A stretch of 64,000 nt of DNA from Azospirillaceae bacterium (GTDB taxonomy: Bacteria > Pseudomonadota > Alphaproteobacteria > Azospirillales > Azospirillaceae), in the NCBI GenBank assembly GCA_028283825.1, contig JAPWJW010000003.1, positions 2,232,501 through 2,296,500 on the forward strand, given 5' to 3'. This document shows, piece by piece, positions 18,831 through 25,856 of this stretch. Positions within the stretch are counted from its first letter, which is position 1; each line of letters begins with the position of its first letter. The position numbers were made by a program, and so were the translations under genes. The notes under the pieces are model-generated. The model had not been told where the DNA came from and searched no databases. It saw only the letters and a list, made by a program, of their open reading frames with translations.

Positions 18831-18862
18831 ACCGCCGCCGGATCGCTCCGGCGGCGGTTTTT
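18831..18862 (+). terminator. Rho-independent terminator after gltB
   Basis: ACCGCCGCCGGA at 18831-18842 pairs perfectly with TCCGGCGGCGGT at 18847-18858 across a TCGC loop, followed by a T-run. The T-run touches the stop codon of the convergent gene at 18862. Confidence 0.9.
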
Positions 18863-19947
18863 TATTGGGCCGGCGGTTCGCCGGTCTGGGGGCGGTTAAG
18901 CGCCGGGCCGGTGGTCTGGAAAATGGCGCCGCCCTGGTGGGTGAAGTACATCAGGTTCTGGCTGCGGGCGACCAGCACATGGTGGGCCCGCAGGAAATCG
19001 GCACCCAGCAACATCTCGATCCGGTTGTCCGGATGGTCGGACAGGCGGGTGCCGGTGTTGAGGTGTTCCGTCGGCGTGTACATGCGGCCGACGCGCAGCT
19101 TGGCGTGCTGCACCGTCTCATCCCCCACCGCCACGCTGTCGAACACCGCCAGCCATTCCTGGAAGGACCGGCCGGCCACGCCCACGGCCTTGTCCGCCTC
19201 CGTCACGCCGGGGCTGTCCGGGGTGATGCCGGCCCGCGCCGCGGCCTTCAGCGACAGCAGCGAGTGTGAGGCGCCGCTGTCCACGATGGCGTGCACCCGT
19301 TGGCCGTTCACCGCCACGTGGATGTTGATGTAGGCATTGCCGGCGGTGGCGGGCTCTACCTCCGCCAGCAGGGCGTCCTTGCTCCATTGCGCCAGATAGG
19401 TCTTCTCGCAGCCTTGGGCGCGGTAGAGAGTCAGCGCGCCATGGGCCAGGTCGATGTCCAGGTCATAGGGACCCAGCACGTCCTCGCCCAACAGGCCCAC
19501 CACGGGAATGCCGTCCTTGCCGGCACCGCCCATATCGGCGGCCCCAACGGCGACGTGCCATTCCTGGATGGTCTGGTCGCCCAGGGTGAACTTGGCGATA
19601 TTGGCGCCCCGCATGCCGGTGACACCGTCCACACCCACCAGGCGCGCGGTGTTGATGCTGACCATGTCCACCGACGGCAAGGCCAGCTTCGACGCCTGGT
19701 CAACGAACAGGGTGGTGGCGAAGGCGCCGGTATCCAGCAGGAAATAGACCGGGGTGTCGTTGACCTCCGCCCGGACCAGCGGTTGGAAGCCGTCCATAAC
19801 CACCGGCAGGGTGTTGATCTTGGCGACCTTGCACGCCTCTGCGGCGTTGGCGGTTGTCGCCACCATGGTGCTGCTCACTGTCAAGGCCGCCATTGCCGGC
19901 ATGGCCGAGGCGATCGCCATCGCCCACACCATCGTTCTCGTTGTCAC
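18862..19947 (-). CDS. Exported two-lobed retropepsin-like aspartyl protease, array member 1
   Basis: A 361-residue protein and the last gene of a six-gene array. An N-terminal signal peptide (about 1-35) is followed by Cys in EACKVAK. Lobe 1 has the catalytic motif FLLDTGAFATT near residue 71 and a GLLGEDVLG motif near 150. Lobe 2 has AIVDSGASHSLL near residue 225 and a LLGADFLRAHHVLVA motif near 315. Both Asp-Thr/Ser-Gly motifs are intact, as in clan AA proteases. Two conserved cysteines (ACK and QGC) may pair in the periplasm. No function is known to me. It most resembles member 5. Confidence 0.8.
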   Translation of the reverse strand: MTTRTMVWAMAIASAMPAMAALTVSSTMVATTANAAEACKVAKINTLPVVMDGFQPLVRAEVNDTPVYFLLDTGAFATTLFVDQASKLALPSVDMVSINTARLVGVDGVTGMRGANIAKFTLGDQTIQEWHVAVGAADMGGAGKDGIPVVGLLGEDVLGPYDLDIDLAHGALTLYRAQGCEKTYLAQWSKDALLAEVEPATAGNAYINIHVAVNGQRVHAIVDSGASHSLLSLKAAARAGITPDSPGVTEADKAVGVAGRSFQEWLAVFDSVAVGDETVQHAKLRVGRMYTPTEHLNTGTRLSDHPDNRIEMLLGADFLRAHHVLVARSQNLMYFTHQGGAIFQTTGPALNRPQTGEPPAQ

Positions 19948-20070
19948 GCTTCAGGCCCCGCTTGTTACAGAACGCGACCGCCCGCGCGCGATACGCGCGT
20001 TTCAGGTGGTCGCTTCCTCTTCAACGGTGCCGATAGGCTTGCCCAGGCGCTTTGTTGTCGGGCTCCAGGC

Positions 20071-21138
20071 CTAAGCCCCGCCCCCCTGGCCGCAATCGCA
20101 GGTGCGCATCGGCTTTTGCAGGGAGAAGGCGGGGCCGCCTTCGTAGGTGAAGTAGACCTTGCGTTGGCTGAAGGCGACGTAGACGTGGTGGGCGCGCAGG
20201 AAGTCCGCGCCCAGCAACAGGTTCACGTCCCCAAGCGGCGCCTTCAACTGGCTTCCCGACCAGCCGCCGCTGAAGTCGCCGTAGATGTCCGAGATGCGCA
20301 GCTTGGCGTTGCGGATGGCCTCGTCACCGAGGGTCAGCGTGTCGAAGACGCCGACATGGCTTTCGACGGGCCCGTGGTCATACGTGGTGCCGGTGGGGGC
20401 CTGGCCATAATGGACGCCCGACGCGCGGGCCACCGCCGCGTCCAGCACCGAGACGGCGGCGCCGCTGTCCAGTTGTGCCGCGACCGGCCGGCCGTTGATC
20501 GCGATCTGCAGGCGGATGGCGTCGCGCCAGTTGGCGTGGCTGTCGTCCAGGGCGATGGCGCTGTAGGTCTTGGTCCAATAGGCCAGTTCCACCGCGTCGC
20601 AGCCTTCGGGCCGGTACAGGCTCAGCGCCTTGTGGGACAGGTCGAATTCGATGTCGTAGCCTTGCAGGAAATCCATGCCCAGGACGCCGACGATGTCAGG
20701 GTTGGCGGGAACGAAGTCATGCTGGCCGCTGACGTAGACGGCCACCCCCTGGCGGTGCCAGGTGCCCAGGTCCAGGCTGGCCAATGTCGCCTGCTTAATT
20801 CGGTCGCCGCCGTCCAGGCCGTACATCAGGGTATTCGCGTCCCGGGCGCCCAGGCCCAGACGGGCGGCGGCCGGCCGGCTGACCAGGCTGGCGAAGGCGC
20901 CGGTATCCACCAGGAAACGGACGGGCTTGCCATTGATGGTGGCGCTGGTCACCAGGCGGCCGCCTTCCAGGCTCAATGGCATGGTCCCGGACTTGGCGAA
21001 CACGCAGTCCGCCTGTGCGCCGCTGGCGCCGATGAGGGCCATGACGCCGGCGGCCGCCGTGGCCGTGAACCATCGTTTCACCAGGGACAACATCGACATC
21101 GTCTTCTCCATGCGCGGGCGCGCGGGGCAGGGGGTCAT
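20071..21138 (-). CDS. Exported two-lobed retropepsin-like aspartyl protease, array member 2
   Basis: A 355-residue paralogue. The signal peptide is followed by ADCVFAKSG. Lobe 1 has FLVDTGAFASLVS near residue 75 and VLGMDFLQGYDIEF near 150. Lobe 2 has AQLDSGAAVSVL near 225 and LLLGADFLRAHHVYVAFSQ near 315. Both catalytic Asp residues are present. Its ATG overlaps the stop of member 3 as ATGA, which implies co-translation; later ATG codons at 21111 and 21099 are alternative starts. A C-terminal tail rich in Cys, Gly and Gln (CDCGQGGGA) is unlike its neighbours. Confidence 0.8.
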   Translation of the reverse strand: MTPCPARPRMEKTMSMLSLVKRWFTATAAAGVMALIGASGAQADCVFAKSGTMPLSLEGGRLVTSATINGKPVRFLVDTGAFASLVSRPAAARLGLGARDANTLMYGLDGGDRIKQATLASLDLGTWHRQGVAVYVSGQHDFVPANPDIVGVLGMDFLQGYDIEFDLSHKALSLYRPEGCDAVELAYWTKTYSAIALDDSHANWRDAIRLQIAINGRPVAAQLDSGAAVSVLDAAVARASGVHYGQAPTGTTYDHGPVESHVGVFDTLTLGDEAIRNAKLRISDIYGDFSGGWSGSQLKAPLGDVNLLLGADFLRAHHVYVAFSQRKVYFTYEGGPAFSLQKPMRTCDCGQGGGA

Positions 21139-22262
21139 TGCTTGGGCTGCGGCGGCGGGTCGGCCATGGGCGGCTTGGCGTGAGGGCTGCCGCTGGCCGC
21201 GGTGGTGCCGTCGGGCCCCTGCACCAATGCAGGGCCGATGACCTGGAACACCGGTCCGCCGGCATAGGTGAAATATATCTTGCGCTGGCTGGACGCGATG
21301 TAGACGCGGTGGGACCGCAGGAAGTCGGCCCCCAGGTACAGGTCGGTGTCGCGGTAGGACGTCTGCAGCCGGCTGCCGACATAGGCCTCGCCCACCGCGC
21401 CATACAGATCGGTCAGGCGCAGCTTGGCATGGCGGATGTTCTCATCGCCGATGGCGAAGGTGTCGAAGACGCCGATGTGGGCGGGCACCAGATAGCCGTT
21501 GGCCCCGCGGATGGAACCGGCTTTTTCCGCATCGCCGTTGTTGACGTCCACGCCCAGGCGCCGGGCCACGCCCTCGTCCATCAGGGTGATGCTGGCGCCG
21601 CTGTCCAGTTCCGCATGCACGGGCTGGCCATTGACCGAGACGACCAGACGGATGTGGGAGCGGGAGCCCTGCATCTCCTCCATTTCCACCACGTTGTAGC
21701 TGTCGGACCAGTAGGCCAAGACCTTGCCGTCGCATCCCTCGGGCTTGTACAGGCTCAGCAGGTTGTCGTGGACATTGAATTCCATGTCATAGCGTTCCAG
21801 CAGGTCCATGCCGAGCATGCCCACCATGTCGCCGTCATTATCATTGCCATAGCCGCCGACATAGACCCGCACATCCTTGCCGTGCCAGGTGCCCAGTTCC
21901 AGCGTGTCCATGGTGGTCTGCAGCAGCCGGCTGGTGCCGTCCACGCCGATCATCTCCCCGCCGCCGTCCACCGCGCGCAGGCCCAGCCGGCCCAGCGCCG
22001 GTCGGTTGATAATGGACATCCAGGCGCCGGTATCGACCAGCATGTGCGCGGGCTTCCCGTTGATGACCACCTCAGCCAGCAGGCGGTTGCCGTCCTGCAC
22101 CAGGGGAATGGTGGCGACCTTGGCCAGCTTGCAGCCGGTGGCGGCCTGGGTGGGGGCGGACGCGGTTGAATAGACGGCGGCCAGGGCCACGCCCGCGACC
22201 GCCATTCGGATTTTCGCCAGACGCGCTTTTATCGGATATGGCCGTGCCCGCTGAGGATTCAT
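21135..22262 (-). CDS. Exported two-lobed retropepsin-like aspartyl protease, array member 3
   Basis: A 375-residue paralogue. A signal peptide (core about 20-36) is followed by TGCKLAKVATIPL. Lobe 1 has MLVDTGAWMSII near residue 72 and MLGMDLLERYDMEF near 150. The conserved KPEGCDG segment and a YWSDSYNV stretch follow. Lobe 2 has AELDSGASITLMDEG near 225 and LYLGADFLRSHRVYIASSQ near 320. Both catalytic motifs are intact. The tail (about 345-375) is Pro- and Lys-rich. It overlaps member 2 by four bases and is separated from member 4 by 90 bp containing a ten-G run. Confidence 0.8.
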   Translation of the reverse strand: MNPQRARPYPIKARLAKIRMAVAGVALAAVYSTASAPTQAATGCKLAKVATIPLVQDGNRLLAEVVINGKPAHMLVDTGAWMSIINRPALGRLGLRAVDGGGEMIGVDGTSRLLQTTMDTLELGTWHGKDVRVYVGGYGNDNDGDMVGMLGMDLLERYDMEFNVHDNLLSLYKPEGCDGKVLAYWSDSYNVVEMEEMQGSRSHIRLVVSVNGQPVHAELDSGASITLMDEGVARRLGVDVNNGDAEKAGSIRGANGYLVPAHIGVFDTFAIGDENIRHAKLRLTDLYGAVGEAYVGSRLQTSYRDTDLYLGADFLRSHRVYIASSQRKIYFTYAGGPVFQVIGPALVQGPDGTTAASGSPHAKPPMADPPPQPKQ

Positions 22263-22352
22263 GGCGCCCTTTCCCCCTGTCTGCGGTCCCCAATGAAATC
22301 TTATTGCAGTTTTGCGGACTCCGCATCGGGTGTCTTGGGGGGGGGGATCCCG

Positions 22353-23381
22353 TCAAGGGGGGCTTGCGATCACCGCTTGTGACGTGCCCGAGCCCCGAAG
22401 CTGGAACAGGGGGCCGCCCCCATAGGTGAAGTAGATTTTGCGCTGGCTGAAGGCGACCAGGACCCGGTGGGCCTTCAGGAAGTCCACACCCAAGTTCAGC
22501 CGAACGCCGTCGTTGTAGGTGGTTTTCAGCCGGCTGCCCACATACGCTTCGCCGCCCTTGAACAGGTCAACCACCCGTATCTTGGGGTGTTTGACGTTTT
22601 CATCACCGATGGCGATCGTGTCCAGCACGGCAAAATGATGGAACGTGGCGCCATCGGAAGGTGGATTGTCCAGGGCTTGGACCGCCAGGCCCAGATTTTG
22701 GGTCAAGCCTTCATCCAAGAGAGAGATGGCGTTGGATGTGTTGATCTGCGCGTGCACGACCTGGCCGTTCACCATGACCGGCAGGCGGATGCGGGCGCGC
22801 GGCGCCGGATCGTCATCCATTTCGGCCAGACTGTAGGTGTCGGACCAATAAGCCAGTTCGCTCTTCTCGCAGCCCAGCGGCTGGTACAGCGTCAGCAGAT
22901 TGTGCGCCAGGTCGAATTCCATGTCGTACTGGCCCAGCACGTTCATGCCCAAGACGCCGACGACATCATCACCGCCCCCAATTTCACCGATGGGACCGAT
23001 CCACAATTCGACGTTCGTGGCTTTCCAACTGCCGATTTCCAAGCTGTCGAAGGTGGTCTTGCGTATCTCAACCGAGCCATTCCGCGGCGCGGCATATTTG
23101 AGATCCGTTCCGTCCATCAGCCGCTCCAGGGCGTGGCTGCTGACGACGGTCGCATTGCTGGACGTGCCGATGACGAAACGGGCCGCCTTGCCGTTGATCT
23201 TGGCCTGGACCAGCAACGCGTTGCCGACGATCTCCAACGGCATGACGCCGGCTTTCAGCAACTGGCAACCCTGTTTGGCGGTGGGGGCCTCCTCCGCCCG
23301 GGAGGGCAGCCCCAGAACCATTGATGACAGACAAACCGCAAGCCCCATCACCCGGGCCAACGGCCCGTTCCCGATACGCAT
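22353..23381 (-). CDS. Retropepsin-like paralogue lacking both catalytic Asp, array member 4
   Basis: A 342-residue paralogue with a signal peptide, then KQGCQLLKAGVMPL. The sequence aligns along its whole length with its neighbours (PLGCEKSELAYWSDTY, NLGVDFLKAHRVLVAFSQ). The first catalytic motif is FVIGTSSNATVVSS, so the Asp-Thr-Gly is lost; the second is AQINTSNAISLLDEG, so Asp-Ser-Gly became Asn-Thr-Ser. The second-lobe tail motif has GVDF where the others have GADF. The frame is open and well conserved, so this is a maintained pseudo-protease and not a decaying gene. It is close to member 6. Confidence 0.8.
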   Translation of the reverse strand: MRIGNGPLARVMGLAVCLSSMVLGLPSRAEEAPTAKQGCQLLKAGVMPLEIVGNALLVQAKINGKAARFVIGTSSNATVVSSHALERLMDGTDLKYAAPRNGSVEIRKTTFDSLEIGSWKATNVELWIGPIGEIGGGDDVVGVLGMNVLGQYDMEFDLAHNLLTLYQPLGCEKSELAYWSDTYSLAEMDDDPAPRARIRLPVMVNGQVVHAQINTSNAISLLDEGLTQNLGLAVQALDNPPSDGATFHHFAVLDTIAIGDENVKHPKIRVVDLFKGGEAYVGSRLKTTYNDGVRLNLGVDFLKAHRVLVAFSQRKIYFTYGGGPLFQLRGSGTSQAVIASPP

Positions 23382-23559
23382 CGCTAAATCCCCGCATCAC
23401 CCGTTTATCGGGCTTTGGGCGGCATGATACGCGCGTGAATTGCGGGCGTGCACATATTTTCTGCGCGCCAATCGCCGATTTATATTAGGAAAAATGCAAT
23501 TAATGGCGCGGTGGCGCGGCCGAGGCCCGGGTTGGGATCGCTTGGGGCCGTCGGGGAAT

Positions 23560-24660
23560 TCATGATCCACCATCCTTGTCCGGTGGCGGGCCGGCCGGTA
23601 TCGCGTCCCCCGCCGGCTCCGCGCCCGTGGCGGCCGGTGCCTCGGGCCGTGGGGTGTCCGTCTGGAAGACGGGGCCGCCAATGTAGCTGAGATAGAGCTT
23701 GCCCTGGCTGTGTGCGATCAGCACGTGGTGGGCGCGCAGGAAATCGGCGCCCAGCAGCATCTCCGTATCGATCACCTGGCTGGCGAGGCGCGACCCGCTC
23801 CACGTTATGGTGTCGTGCTTGAAGATGTCGCCGAAGCGCATCTTGGGATGGCGGATGGTTTCATCGCCGATGGTGAAACTGTCGAACCGGCCGATCCATA
23901 CCGCTTCCCGGGCCGCGCCGATGCCTGTGGTGTGGCCGGCTGCCGTCACGCCCGCGCTTTCCGGCGTGACGCCCAGGCGGCCCGCGTCGTCCTTGGTCAG
24001 GATGGAATAATAGGCGCCGGAATCCAGTTCGGCCAGGATCGGCTCGCCGTTGATCAGGACCTTGGGGCGGATGTGGGGGTTGTTGATACCGACCGTGGGA
24101 AAATCCGCGACCGTGTAGGCCCCGGTCCAGGGCAGCAGATCCACGCCGTCGCAGTCGTGGGCCTGGTAGAAAAACATCTGCCCATGCGACAGGTCCATCT
24201 CCACGTCGAAATGGCGCAGGAAATCCTCGCCCAGAAGGCCGGCGACCTTGACGGGGGTGCCATCGTTGCCGGGGGCGCCGACCACGTTCAGGCGCAGATC
24301 ATGAAGGGTCGCCTGATCCAGGGTCAGCGTTTCCAGCGTGGTCGACATGATCTTGCTTTCACCACCGACACCGTAGGCGGTGGCACCCTGGACGATGCCC
24401 AACGGTAAACCCAGCTTCTCCGCCGCGCTGCGGAACAGCATGCTGGCGAAGGCGCCGGAATCGATCAGGAACTGCACCGGCTGGCCGTTGATGCTGCCGT
24501 CCACCAGGGGGCGGTTGCCCTCCATCTTGACCGGCAGGCTGGCCACCTTGACGAACTGGCATTTTGTTTCCGCCGCGGCGGGCGCCGCCAGCAGTATCAG
24601 CGCGCACGTGCCCAGCGCGCTGGCCAGGCGTCCAATTCCAGAATCCATCACCATCTTCAC
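23560..24660 (-). CDS. Exported two-lobed retropepsin-like aspartyl protease, array member 5
   Basis: A 366-residue paralogue. A signal peptide (core about 14-30) is followed by TKCQFVKVASLPV. Lobe 1 has FLIDSGAFASMLF near residue 70 and LLGEDFLRHFDVEMDL near 150. Lobe 2 has AELDSGAYYSILTKD near 220 and MLLGADFLRAHHVLIAHSQ near 315. Both catalytic motifs are intact, with Ser in place of Thr in lobe 1. The spacing and the VTPESAGVTAAG stretch match member 1. A GGGGGTG ribosome site lies just before the ATG. The tail is rich in Pro, Ala and Gly. Confidence 0.8.
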   Translation of the reverse strand: MKMVMDSGIGRLASALGTCALILLAAPAAAETKCQFVKVASLPVKMEGNRPLVDGSINGQPVQFLIDSGAFASMLFRSAAEKLGLPLGIVQGATAYGVGGESKIMSTTLETLTLDQATLHDLRLNVVGAPGNDGTPVKVAGLLGEDFLRHFDVEMDLSHGQMFFYQAHDCDGVDLLPWTGAYTVADFPTVGINNPHIRPKVLINGEPILAELDSGAYYSILTKDDAGRLGVTPESAGVTAAGHTTGIGAAREAVWIGRFDSFTIGDETIRHPKMRFGDIFKHDTITWSGSRLASQVIDTEMLLGADFLRAHHVLIAHSQGKLYLSYIGGPVFQTDTPRPEAPAATGAEPAGDAIPAGPPPDKDGGS

Positions 24661-24785
24661 CCCCAGGGGCCTGTCACAACTCTCACGGCGAGTTCATACT
24701 ATTGCAACCAGTGTGGTGGGGAAGTCTGTTCACCACACGCGTATTGGTGTTCGTTCAGGGGCCGGGCCCTGTCCGGTGATTGGCC

Positions 24786-25856
24786 TTATTTACGGGATAC
24801 GCCCGTTTCCGACACCGCATCGATCTCGCGGCCGCTGGTCAACTCCGGCCCGACGGTCTGGAAGATGGGGCCGCCTTCGTAGGTGAAGTAGATTTTGCGC
24901 TGGCTGAAAGCGACGTACAGGCGGTGGGATTTCAGGAAATCCACACCCAGGGACAGCGGGACATGGTCGCGACCGTACGAGACCTTCTGCAACTGACCCG
25001 CCCAGACCGATGACTGCTTGTACAGGTCGGAAACGCGAAGCTTGGCGTGGCGGACCGCCTCGTCGCCGATCGCCAACGTGTCCAGCATAGCGACCGGGCC
25101 GTGCGTGGCCTTGGCCTGGTCGTCGGCCAAGCTTTCGGCGGCGGGTTGCACCACCTCTGCCCCCAATTGCCGGGCCAGCCCCTGGTCCAGGTGGCTGATC
25201 GACACGCCGCTGGCCAATTGCGCCCGCACTTGCTGGCCGTTCAGGGTGGCCAGCAGGCGGATATGGGCGCGCGGCGCGTTGTCGGCGTCCATTTCCGCCA
25301 GGCTGTAGTTGTTGGACCAATAGGCCAGTTCCGCCGTCTCGCACCCCTGCGGCTGGTACAGCACGATCTGTTTGTGCCCGACGTCGAACTCCACGTCGAA
25401 CTTGCCCAGGATATCCATGCCCAGTAGGCCGACCACGTCGTATTGGTCGGACAGGGTGCCATACAGGCCTGAGAGGATGCGCACGTCCTTGGCGGACCAG
25501 TCCCCCAGGTCCAGGGTGTCCAGGGTCATCCAGTCCAGGCTGAAATATTCGGGCGGCAATACCTTGGTCCGGGAGGGCTGGCCCAGTTGGGCCAGTGCCT
25601 GCACGCTGATGACTGAGACGTTGCTGCCAGTGACAACGCGGAAATAGGCCGGCTTGCCGTTGACCTGCGCCTTCACCAGCAGGGAATTGCCGTCCAATTC
25701 CAGGGGAAGCGTGCCGACTTTGAGCAGCTTGCAGCCGCCGGTCGCCGCAGGGGCGTCGGCAAGGGCGGGAAATGAGAGGCCAAGGCCGACGATAGACAGC
25801 AGTGCTGCGGCAACAAGACGCCGACTCCGATAGGCAAAAGCGATCACGGAACTCAT
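24786..25856 (-). CDS. Retropepsin-like paralogue lacking both catalytic Asp, array member 6
   Basis: A 356-residue paralogue and the first gene of the array. A signal peptide (core about 13-32) is followed by GGCKLLKVGTLPL. The first catalytic motif is FRVVTGSNVSVIS (Asp replaced by Val) and the second is AQLASGVSISHLDQG (Asp replaced by Ala), so both catalytic residues are missing while the surrounding fold is kept (LLGMDILGKFDVEFD, SLGVDFLKSHRLYVAFSQ). The ATG at 25856 sits directly after AGAGGGG. A GTG three codons later at 25847 has better spacing and may be the real start. It lies 107 bp downstream of glpK. Confidence 0.78.
   Translation of the reverse strand: MSSVIAFAYRSRRLVAAALLSIVGLGLSFPALADAPAATGGCKLLKVGTLPLELDGNSLLVKAQVNGKPAYFRVVTGSNVSVISVQALAQLGQPSRTKVLPPEYFSLDWMTLDTLDLGDWSAKDVRILSGLYGTLSDQYDVVGLLGMDILGKFDVEFDVGHKQIVLYQPQGCETAELAYWSNNYSLAEMDADNAPRAHIRLLATLNGQQVRAQLASGVSISHLDQGLARQLGAEVVQPAAESLADDQAKATHGPVAMLDTLAIGDEAVRHAKLRVSDLYKQSSVWAGQLQKVSYGRDHVPLSLGVDFLKSHRLYVAFSQRKIYFTYEGGPIFQTVGPELTSGREIDAVSETGVSRK

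Follow-up and report, generated by a model that had tools for sequence, protein, structure and literature searches.

Bilobed retropepsin-like proteins with and without catalytic aspartates in a tandem array of an Azospirillaceae bacterium

The closest described relatives of the gene array considered here are retropepsin-like and pepsin-like aspartic peptidases. The array (positions 18862-25856, minus strand; proteins P0001 to P0006) lies in a stretch of 64,000 nucleotides from an Azospirillaceae bacterium (assembly GCA_028283825.1, contig JAPWJW010000003.1, positions 2,232,501 to 2,296,500), referred to as the window. According to PMC12239564, RloA1-3 from Pseudomonas aeruginosa are exported, have a DTGA-type site, occur as several paralogues in one genome, and contain a disulfide in the periplasmic members; the array proteins resemble them in these respects, export and the disulfide being probable here. 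On the other hand, RloA is a single-lobed homodimer, whereas here each chain contains two lobes and catalytically dead paralogues are found. RloA is classed in the same text among the Pfam zinc proteases, and none of the six array proteins matched that family at an E-value of 1 or better. Retropepsins of family A2 (human immunodeficiency virus (HIV) type) are also single-lobe homodimers and thereby differ from the array, in which all six proteins have two lobes per chain. Pepsins of family A1, including bacterial pepsin homologues (PMC2761423) such as shewasin, share a bilobed single chain with one Asp per lobe; in the array proteins, by contrast, the two lobes are still recognised by identical Pfam models. 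No match to PF00026 (pepsin) was detected in the six at an E-value of 1 or better, and only one of 123 aligned family members matched it, weakly (7e-4).

The domains, the name "aspartyl protease family protein", and exported single-lobe retropepsins (the last from PMC12239564) are already known. Among the open-access literature matches listed, judged by title and start of abstract, there was no publication on this array, on bilobed bacterial retropepsins, or on bacterial retropepsin pseudoenzymes, and none of them described such bilobed proteins of bacteria together with retained paralogues lacking both catalytic Asp (double-dead members).

Predicted fold and catalytic residues of the array proteins

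The array consisted of six intact open reading frames (ORFs) of 361, 355, 375, 342, 366, and 356 codons (P0001 to P0006, respectively), as described in an initial annotation made from the sequence (six adjacent minus-strand genes of 342-375 codons). In a profile search, two PF13650 and two PF13975 stretches were found above the gathering scores in each of the six proteins, with best PF13650 E-values of 1e-11 to 1e-27, in agreement with the two retropepsin-like lobes that had been proposed. Identity with the first member of the alignment was 33-38%, and the similarity among the six is far beyond chance. Altogether 137 distinct family members were found, among which 128 (including the six) covered at least 270 of the 360 positions of a two-lobe model and were used for the counts below; the nine with fewer than 270 positions were left out. 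PF13650 or PF13975 was matched at an E-value of 0.001 or better by all 123 members of alignment A2 (123 of 126 rows; alignment A3 holds 73 of these).

All six share an invariant Cys before lobe 1, a second Cys together with a Trp close to the boundary between the lobes, and the segment LG-x-DFL-x-x-H closing lobe 2, so that the conserved Cys residues and closing segment of the initial annotation held. Both Cys residues were present in 125 of the 128 members and both were absent in one, while the first Cys alone was not seen in two, one of which is a cut-off record. This pair probably forms a disulfide that staples the chain between its N-terminus and the interlobe linker. A hydrophobic stretch, taken as a proxy for a signal peptide, was located ahead of the first Cys in 122 of the 127 members checked, including all six; the proposed export of the whole set is probable on this proxy, and would be Sec-dependent and probably directed to the periplasm.

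AlphaFold2 gave confident two-lobe models for the mature forms of both P0003, which has both Asp (predicted local distance difference test (pLDDT) score of 87.6, predicted template-modelling (pTM) score of 0.86), and P0004, which has neither (88.5 and 0.88, respectively), consistent with the bilobal structure expected at the outset; the models were judged by confidence values and secondary structure rather than coordinates. The same strand order was seen by eye in both halves of the P0003 model. In that of P0004, the strand equivalent to residues 58-66 of P0003, in the presumed flap region of lobe 1, was not formed, the stretch concerned being of lower confidence. A pepsin-like cleft is likely in the array proteins. 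In a lobe tree of 38 live proteins (a quick tree from few columns), first lobes formed one clade and second lobes the other (support of 96), which fits one old duplication or fusion. Both Asp residues of the dyad would then lie within one molecule, with one active site per chain, and the chain would resemble a natural version of a tethered HIV-protease dimer.

The initial annotation had placed Asp-Thr/Ser-Gly in both lobes of every member. This was correct for P0001, P0002, P0003, and P0005, but D-[TS]-G was found in neither lobe of P0004 (codons 72 and 214) or P0006 (codons 75 and 215) (Table 1), and the loop between the two motifs of lobe 1 was shortened in P0006. Since both lobes have to contribute an Asp for an aspartic peptidase of this clan to be active (PMC12239564, introduction; also textbook), P0004 and P0006 should be inactive. 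Among the 128 members, both Asp were kept in 114, both lost in nine, and one lost in five (lobe 1 only in four, lobe 2 only in one); a Fisher test on these counts gave 3.6e-10, although the rows are not independent. The rows left out of the counts include L105 (STG/ATG), which would be an additional double-dead member, two from L107 (DSA/DTG), and two fragments from L098.

Loss of the Asp pair was mostly accompanied by that of a Gly that lies, in each lobe, after the Asp motif and before hhG, the clearest exception to the conservation of the remaining sequence: the lobe-1 Gly (model column 102) was present in 109 of 114 live but one of nine double-dead members, and the lobe-2 Gly (column 251) in 104 of 114 and one of nine, respectively. 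Both are lost in P0004 and in P0006. By their position, these Gly residues may belong to the flap region of each lobe. The 34 most conserved columns include those of the two Gly; at the remaining 32, the live consensus was found in 253 of 283 double-dead cells (89%) versus 3409 of 3617 live ones (94%).

Recurrence, apparent retention, and turnover of the family

In a quick tree of the 128 rows with the two Asp columns removed, the double-dead label required at least four changes, a figure that held when branches with support below 95 were disregarded; provided that Asp was never regained, these changes are four independent losses. One dead group consisted of P0004, P0006, and a protein from Azospirillum sp. 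B4 (support of 87). Another (support of 100) contained one gene from each of four Nitrospirillum genomes at a second locus, where it is the first of three genes in the order of transcription (L084, L087, L093, and L096); the other three Nitrospirillum genomes have two genes each at this locus, all with both Asp. Single double-dead cases were found in two Massilia genomes (L051 and L075). The B4 relative of P0006 showed 82% identity and the same Val and Ala residues, and the ratio of nonsynonymous to synonymous substitution rates (dN/dS) for this pair was 0.15. Among dead orthologues, including the four-genome clade of the second locus, dN/dS was 0.08-0.19 (six pairs, with sequences shared between pairs), and ten live comparisons gave 0.07-0.63; these values, obtained by a simple counting method at high synonymous divergence, are approximate. 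The dead orthologues look to be under purifying selection.

The five rows with one Asp lost comprised four from genome G048 and one from a Massilia genome. In G048, all three genes of one array (L102, 7506-10413) lacked only the lobe-1 Asp, and a gene in a second array (L101, 8380-9594) showed the same loss. In G165, which shares its genus code with G048, a gene judged by eye and off the tree (L111, 330-1919) had a similar pattern, with IATG/DTA versus IGTG/DSA in G048, and another (L137, 1495-2457) kept Asp in both lobes. One family member of strain CBAmc is apparently split across two frames (L098, 7886-9572).

The genome of the window contained 11 members, six of them in this array and the remaining five distributed over three other places; among 22 PF13650 matches in this genome, one (C1:958721) lay outside the 11 proteins. 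Copy numbers of 7-11 were found in all seven Nitrospirillum genomes searched (including that of the window, which is taken to belong to this genus; its six same-genus relatives are five Nitrospirillum and Azospirillum sp. B4); two counts disagreed by a single member for G001 and for G006, both of which had split matches. A match at 1e-10 was detected in three of 28 other genomes of the family Azospirillaceae. The lineage expansion suggested initially is thus supported, and falls on the Nitrospirillum lineage. In a survey of the class, 17 of 289 genomes (including that of the window) had a match at 1e-25; as at most eight candidates were scored per genome, the copy numbers in this survey are lower bounds (8 versus 11 for the genome of the window). 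Relatives were also found in Caulobacterales, Massilia, and betaproteobacterial assemblies, giving 48 loci altogether; those of Massilia and Caulobacterales are single or tandem genes. Three plasmid records of Sphingomonas and Novosphingobium carried distant relatives (27-31% identity), annotated as "aspartyl protease family protein".

The array adjoined glutamate synthase in all six same-genus relatives, with FGGY kinase on the other side in five (none in the stretch of B4 examined). Copies at this site numbered six in the window, six in B4, five in iridis, and three, three, three, and two in the remaining genomes. Identity between genomes was 94-96% for glutamate synthase and 85-89% for FGGY kinase, while the best match to P0003 at the site was 39% in BR 11622 and ranged from 65 to 72% in the five other genomes, and P0001 showed 48% identity with its CBAmc relative (dN/dS of 0.63). 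As the comparison had no control with other exported proteins, this divergence shows turnover at the array site, not positive selection.

Possible functions and genomic surroundings

We regard the array as combining exported single-chain aspartic endopeptidases with retained pseudopeptidases, the latter probably serving in peptide binding or regulation, and assign this reading a probability of about 0.62. P0001, P0002, P0003, and P0005 would cut peptides or proteins of the envelope, and their specificities probably differ, whereas P0004 and P0006, which appear to keep the fold, would most likely be non-catalytic binders of or competitors for the same peptides, or regulators of the live paralogues. 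The envelope peptidase or peptide-binding system of the initial annotation was a fair frame, with four probable peptidases and two non-catalytic members fitting both of its halves, although the dead members were missed. A narrower form, possible but doubtful at present, is that live and double-dead members make up a cut-or-hold pair within a diversifying exported repertoire, in which the dead ones act as peptide receptors or decoys that set the access of the live ones to substrates.

Several observations weigh against the reading of peptidases with retained pseudopeptidases. No P0004 orthologue was found in any of the six same-genus relatives, and dN/dS between P0004 and its paralogue P0006 was 0.47. 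The double-dead genes are dispensable, as two of the seven Nitrospirillum genomes (CBAmc and BR 11880) had no such member among those extracted. Live P0002 also lacks the lobe-2 Gly, and loss of this residue alone is therefore no marker of a dead member. Because no convincing partner gene was shared among the loci (neighbours clustered by similarity, with the 40 widest clusters inspected), a regulatory or envelope-processing role is without genetic support; nor did the neighbours offer a firm clue to the substrate.

The absence of a P0004 orthologue and of double-dead members from two genomes, together with a copy number at the site ranging from 2 to 6 across the seven genomes, would also fit P0004 and P0006 being functionless, decaying by-products of birth and death in an array of redundant scavenging or housekeeping proteases; tandem duplication often yields dead copies. 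We consider this unlikely, since both dead ORFs are full length with a coding base composition (third-position GC content of 0.79 and 0.82 in P0004 and P0006, respectively), a P0006 relative is kept in B4 and a dead clade in four genomes with the low dN/dS given above, the conserved non-catalytic columns are mostly kept, and the dead state requires at least four changes on the tree. The same repeated loss of catalytic residues may instead indicate that the whole family mainly binds, as an exported repertoire for peptides or proteins (sensing, inhibitor capture, or an immunity-like role) that diversifies in arrays. The divergence of P0003 and P0001 beside conserved flanking enzymes and the lack of a convincing partner gene are in line with this; however, divergence is often more rapid in exported proteins than in metabolic enzymes, and both Asp are kept in 114 of the 128 members despite a mean column identity of 30% (123-row alignment). 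This retention speaks for catalysis as the usual function, and a mainly binding family is improbable. It is least probable, and indeed very doubtful, that the proteins are simply ordinary uncharacterised members of the "aspartyl protease family protein" group and that the array is unremarkable, a view compatible with the preferred one of peptidases and retained pseudopeptidases. The annotation of the three plasmid records and the single or tandem relatives in Massilia and Caulobacterales agree with it, but it leaves the recurrent, retained loss of both Asp and of the conserved Gly residues unexplained.

The genes are transcribed in the order P0006, P0005, P0004, P0003, P0002, and P0001, with spacing from a 4-base overlap up to 178 bases; the overlap is that of the longest ORF for P0002 with the end of P0003, and a later ATG at 21111 is an alternative start. 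A scan for promoters and terminators gave none above shuffled sequences (0 versus 1.3 and 2 versus 4.8). A tRNA-Phe called by ARAGORN antisense in P0005 (23842-23914, plus strand) had no Rfam match at gathering scores and is probably false. In the window, the array lies between the genes for glutamate synthase, at lower coordinates, and for an FGGY carbohydrate kinase, at higher ones. The other flanking ORFs scanned encode an oxidoreductase on the glutamate synthase side and AAA, YgjP-like, and GST-like proteins on the kinase side; none of these six is a retroelement gene, as had been noted initially. A Sel1 match in the C-terminal tail was detected in three of four full-length Massilia members scanned (one over the Pfam cut-off and two below it; Table 1), and none in the fourth.

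Table 1. Coordinates of the array genes in the window and of Massilia members (positions within their own loci)
Feature	Position	Strand	Lobe 1 motif	Lobe 2 motif	Description
P0006	24786..25856	-	VTG 25626-25634	ASG 25206-25214	Bilobed pseudopeptidase, probably exported; first gene
P0005	23560..24660	-	DSG 24454-24462	DSG 24016-24024	Bilobed aspartic peptidase, probably exported
P0004	22353..23381	-	GTS 23160-23168	NTS 22734-22742	Bilobed pseudopeptidase, probably exported
P0003	21135..22262	-	DTG 22026-22034	DSG 21597-21605	Bilobed aspartic peptidase, probably exported
P0002	20071..21138	-	DTG 20899-20907	DSG 20461-20469	Bilobed aspartic peptidase, probably exported
P0001	18862..19947	-	DTG 19726-19734	DSG 19273-19281	Bilobed aspartic peptidase, probably exported; last gene
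L059	15069-16616				Massilia member with Sel1 tail
L065	12016-13548				Massilia member with Sel1 tail
L052	8821-10389				Massilia member with Sel1 tail

Many neighbour clusters reflected synteny within genera. Genes were called by a simple GC-frame script with a floor of 90 residues, which mis-called some family genes, and partners may therefore be missed. In two Caulobacterales loci the widest cluster (13 genes in five groups, ATP-binding cassette (ABC)-transporter-like by eye) was separated from the array by 3 and 9 bases, and at the second Nitrospirillum locus by approximately 0.9-1.0 kb, but its members look mixed, the L041 one reading like an antisense frame. The next cluster (12 genes in four groups) was 2-5 kb away in the six nearest cases listed. 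Neither was judged to be a convincingly shared partner. ABC-transporter-like genes (by eye) were seen near family members in a few loci (L068, 1140-2174, and the second Nitrospirillum locus). For partners of the RloA/RimB type (ATP-grasp and inactive transglutaminase), no convincing shared neighbour cluster was found, with no profile search made for those domains.

A phage origin was rejected, PHROGs giving one weak match (P0001). All six proteins matched the PADLOC candidate defence models PDC-M08B, the matches being strong for the four live members (1e-8 to 2e-13) but weak for P0004 and P0006, which was judged to be the general homology expected of retropepsin-like lobes. With regard to mobile spread, distant relatives were seen on the three plasmid records.

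Comparison with known systems

TIGR02281 (clan AA, DTGA) was the best NCBIfam match for all six proteins. Its cut-off of 57.95 bits was passed only by P0003 (65.7), as a whole protein, and by no single stretch of the genome of the window. The model describes one lobe of 121 positions, whereas the array proteins have two lobes. Caulobacter PerP is a periplasmic member of this family.

The best match among solved structures, using a family profile, was 9iy9, "Exported protein" (3.5e-14), which also has two retropepsin-like stretches in one chain but differs in its length of 420 residues, with approximately 160 before lobe 1, and in a weak second stretch (i-Evalue of 0.46); a search of the open-access literature for this code gave no paper. 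The profile also matched tethered or covalent HIV protease dimers (4ep2, 3nxe, and 2o40; E-values of 9e-7 to 4e-6, with no single stretch significant), as well as Rickettsia APRc (5c9b and 5c9d) and DDI1/DDI2; the latter two are retropepsin-like, but their solved chains are of 128-169 residues with one lobe. According to PMC2761423, pepsin probably originated when a retropepsin-like half was duplicated and the copies fused. The present family, with bacterial chains whose halves are both still recognised by the same one-lobe model, can serve as a naturally occurring example of a tethered retropepsin.

Because both Asp have been lost repeatedly next to live paralogues, and the dead orthologues are apparently kept, the family also provides a system for studying pseudopeptidase function in plant-associated bacteria, which are not known to be pathogens. 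Bla g 2 is an inactive pepsin-like protein, as P0004 and P0006 would be, but belongs to the eukaryotic A1 family and not to proteins with bacterial retropepsin-like lobes. The pregnancy-associated glycoproteins are likewise catalytically dead aspartic-peptidase folds in expanded eukaryotic A1 families. If the cut-or-hold pair proves true, the array would be a bacterial counterpart of such expanded animal families of dead pepsin-like proteins, with a naturally tethered retropepsin dimer as its basis.

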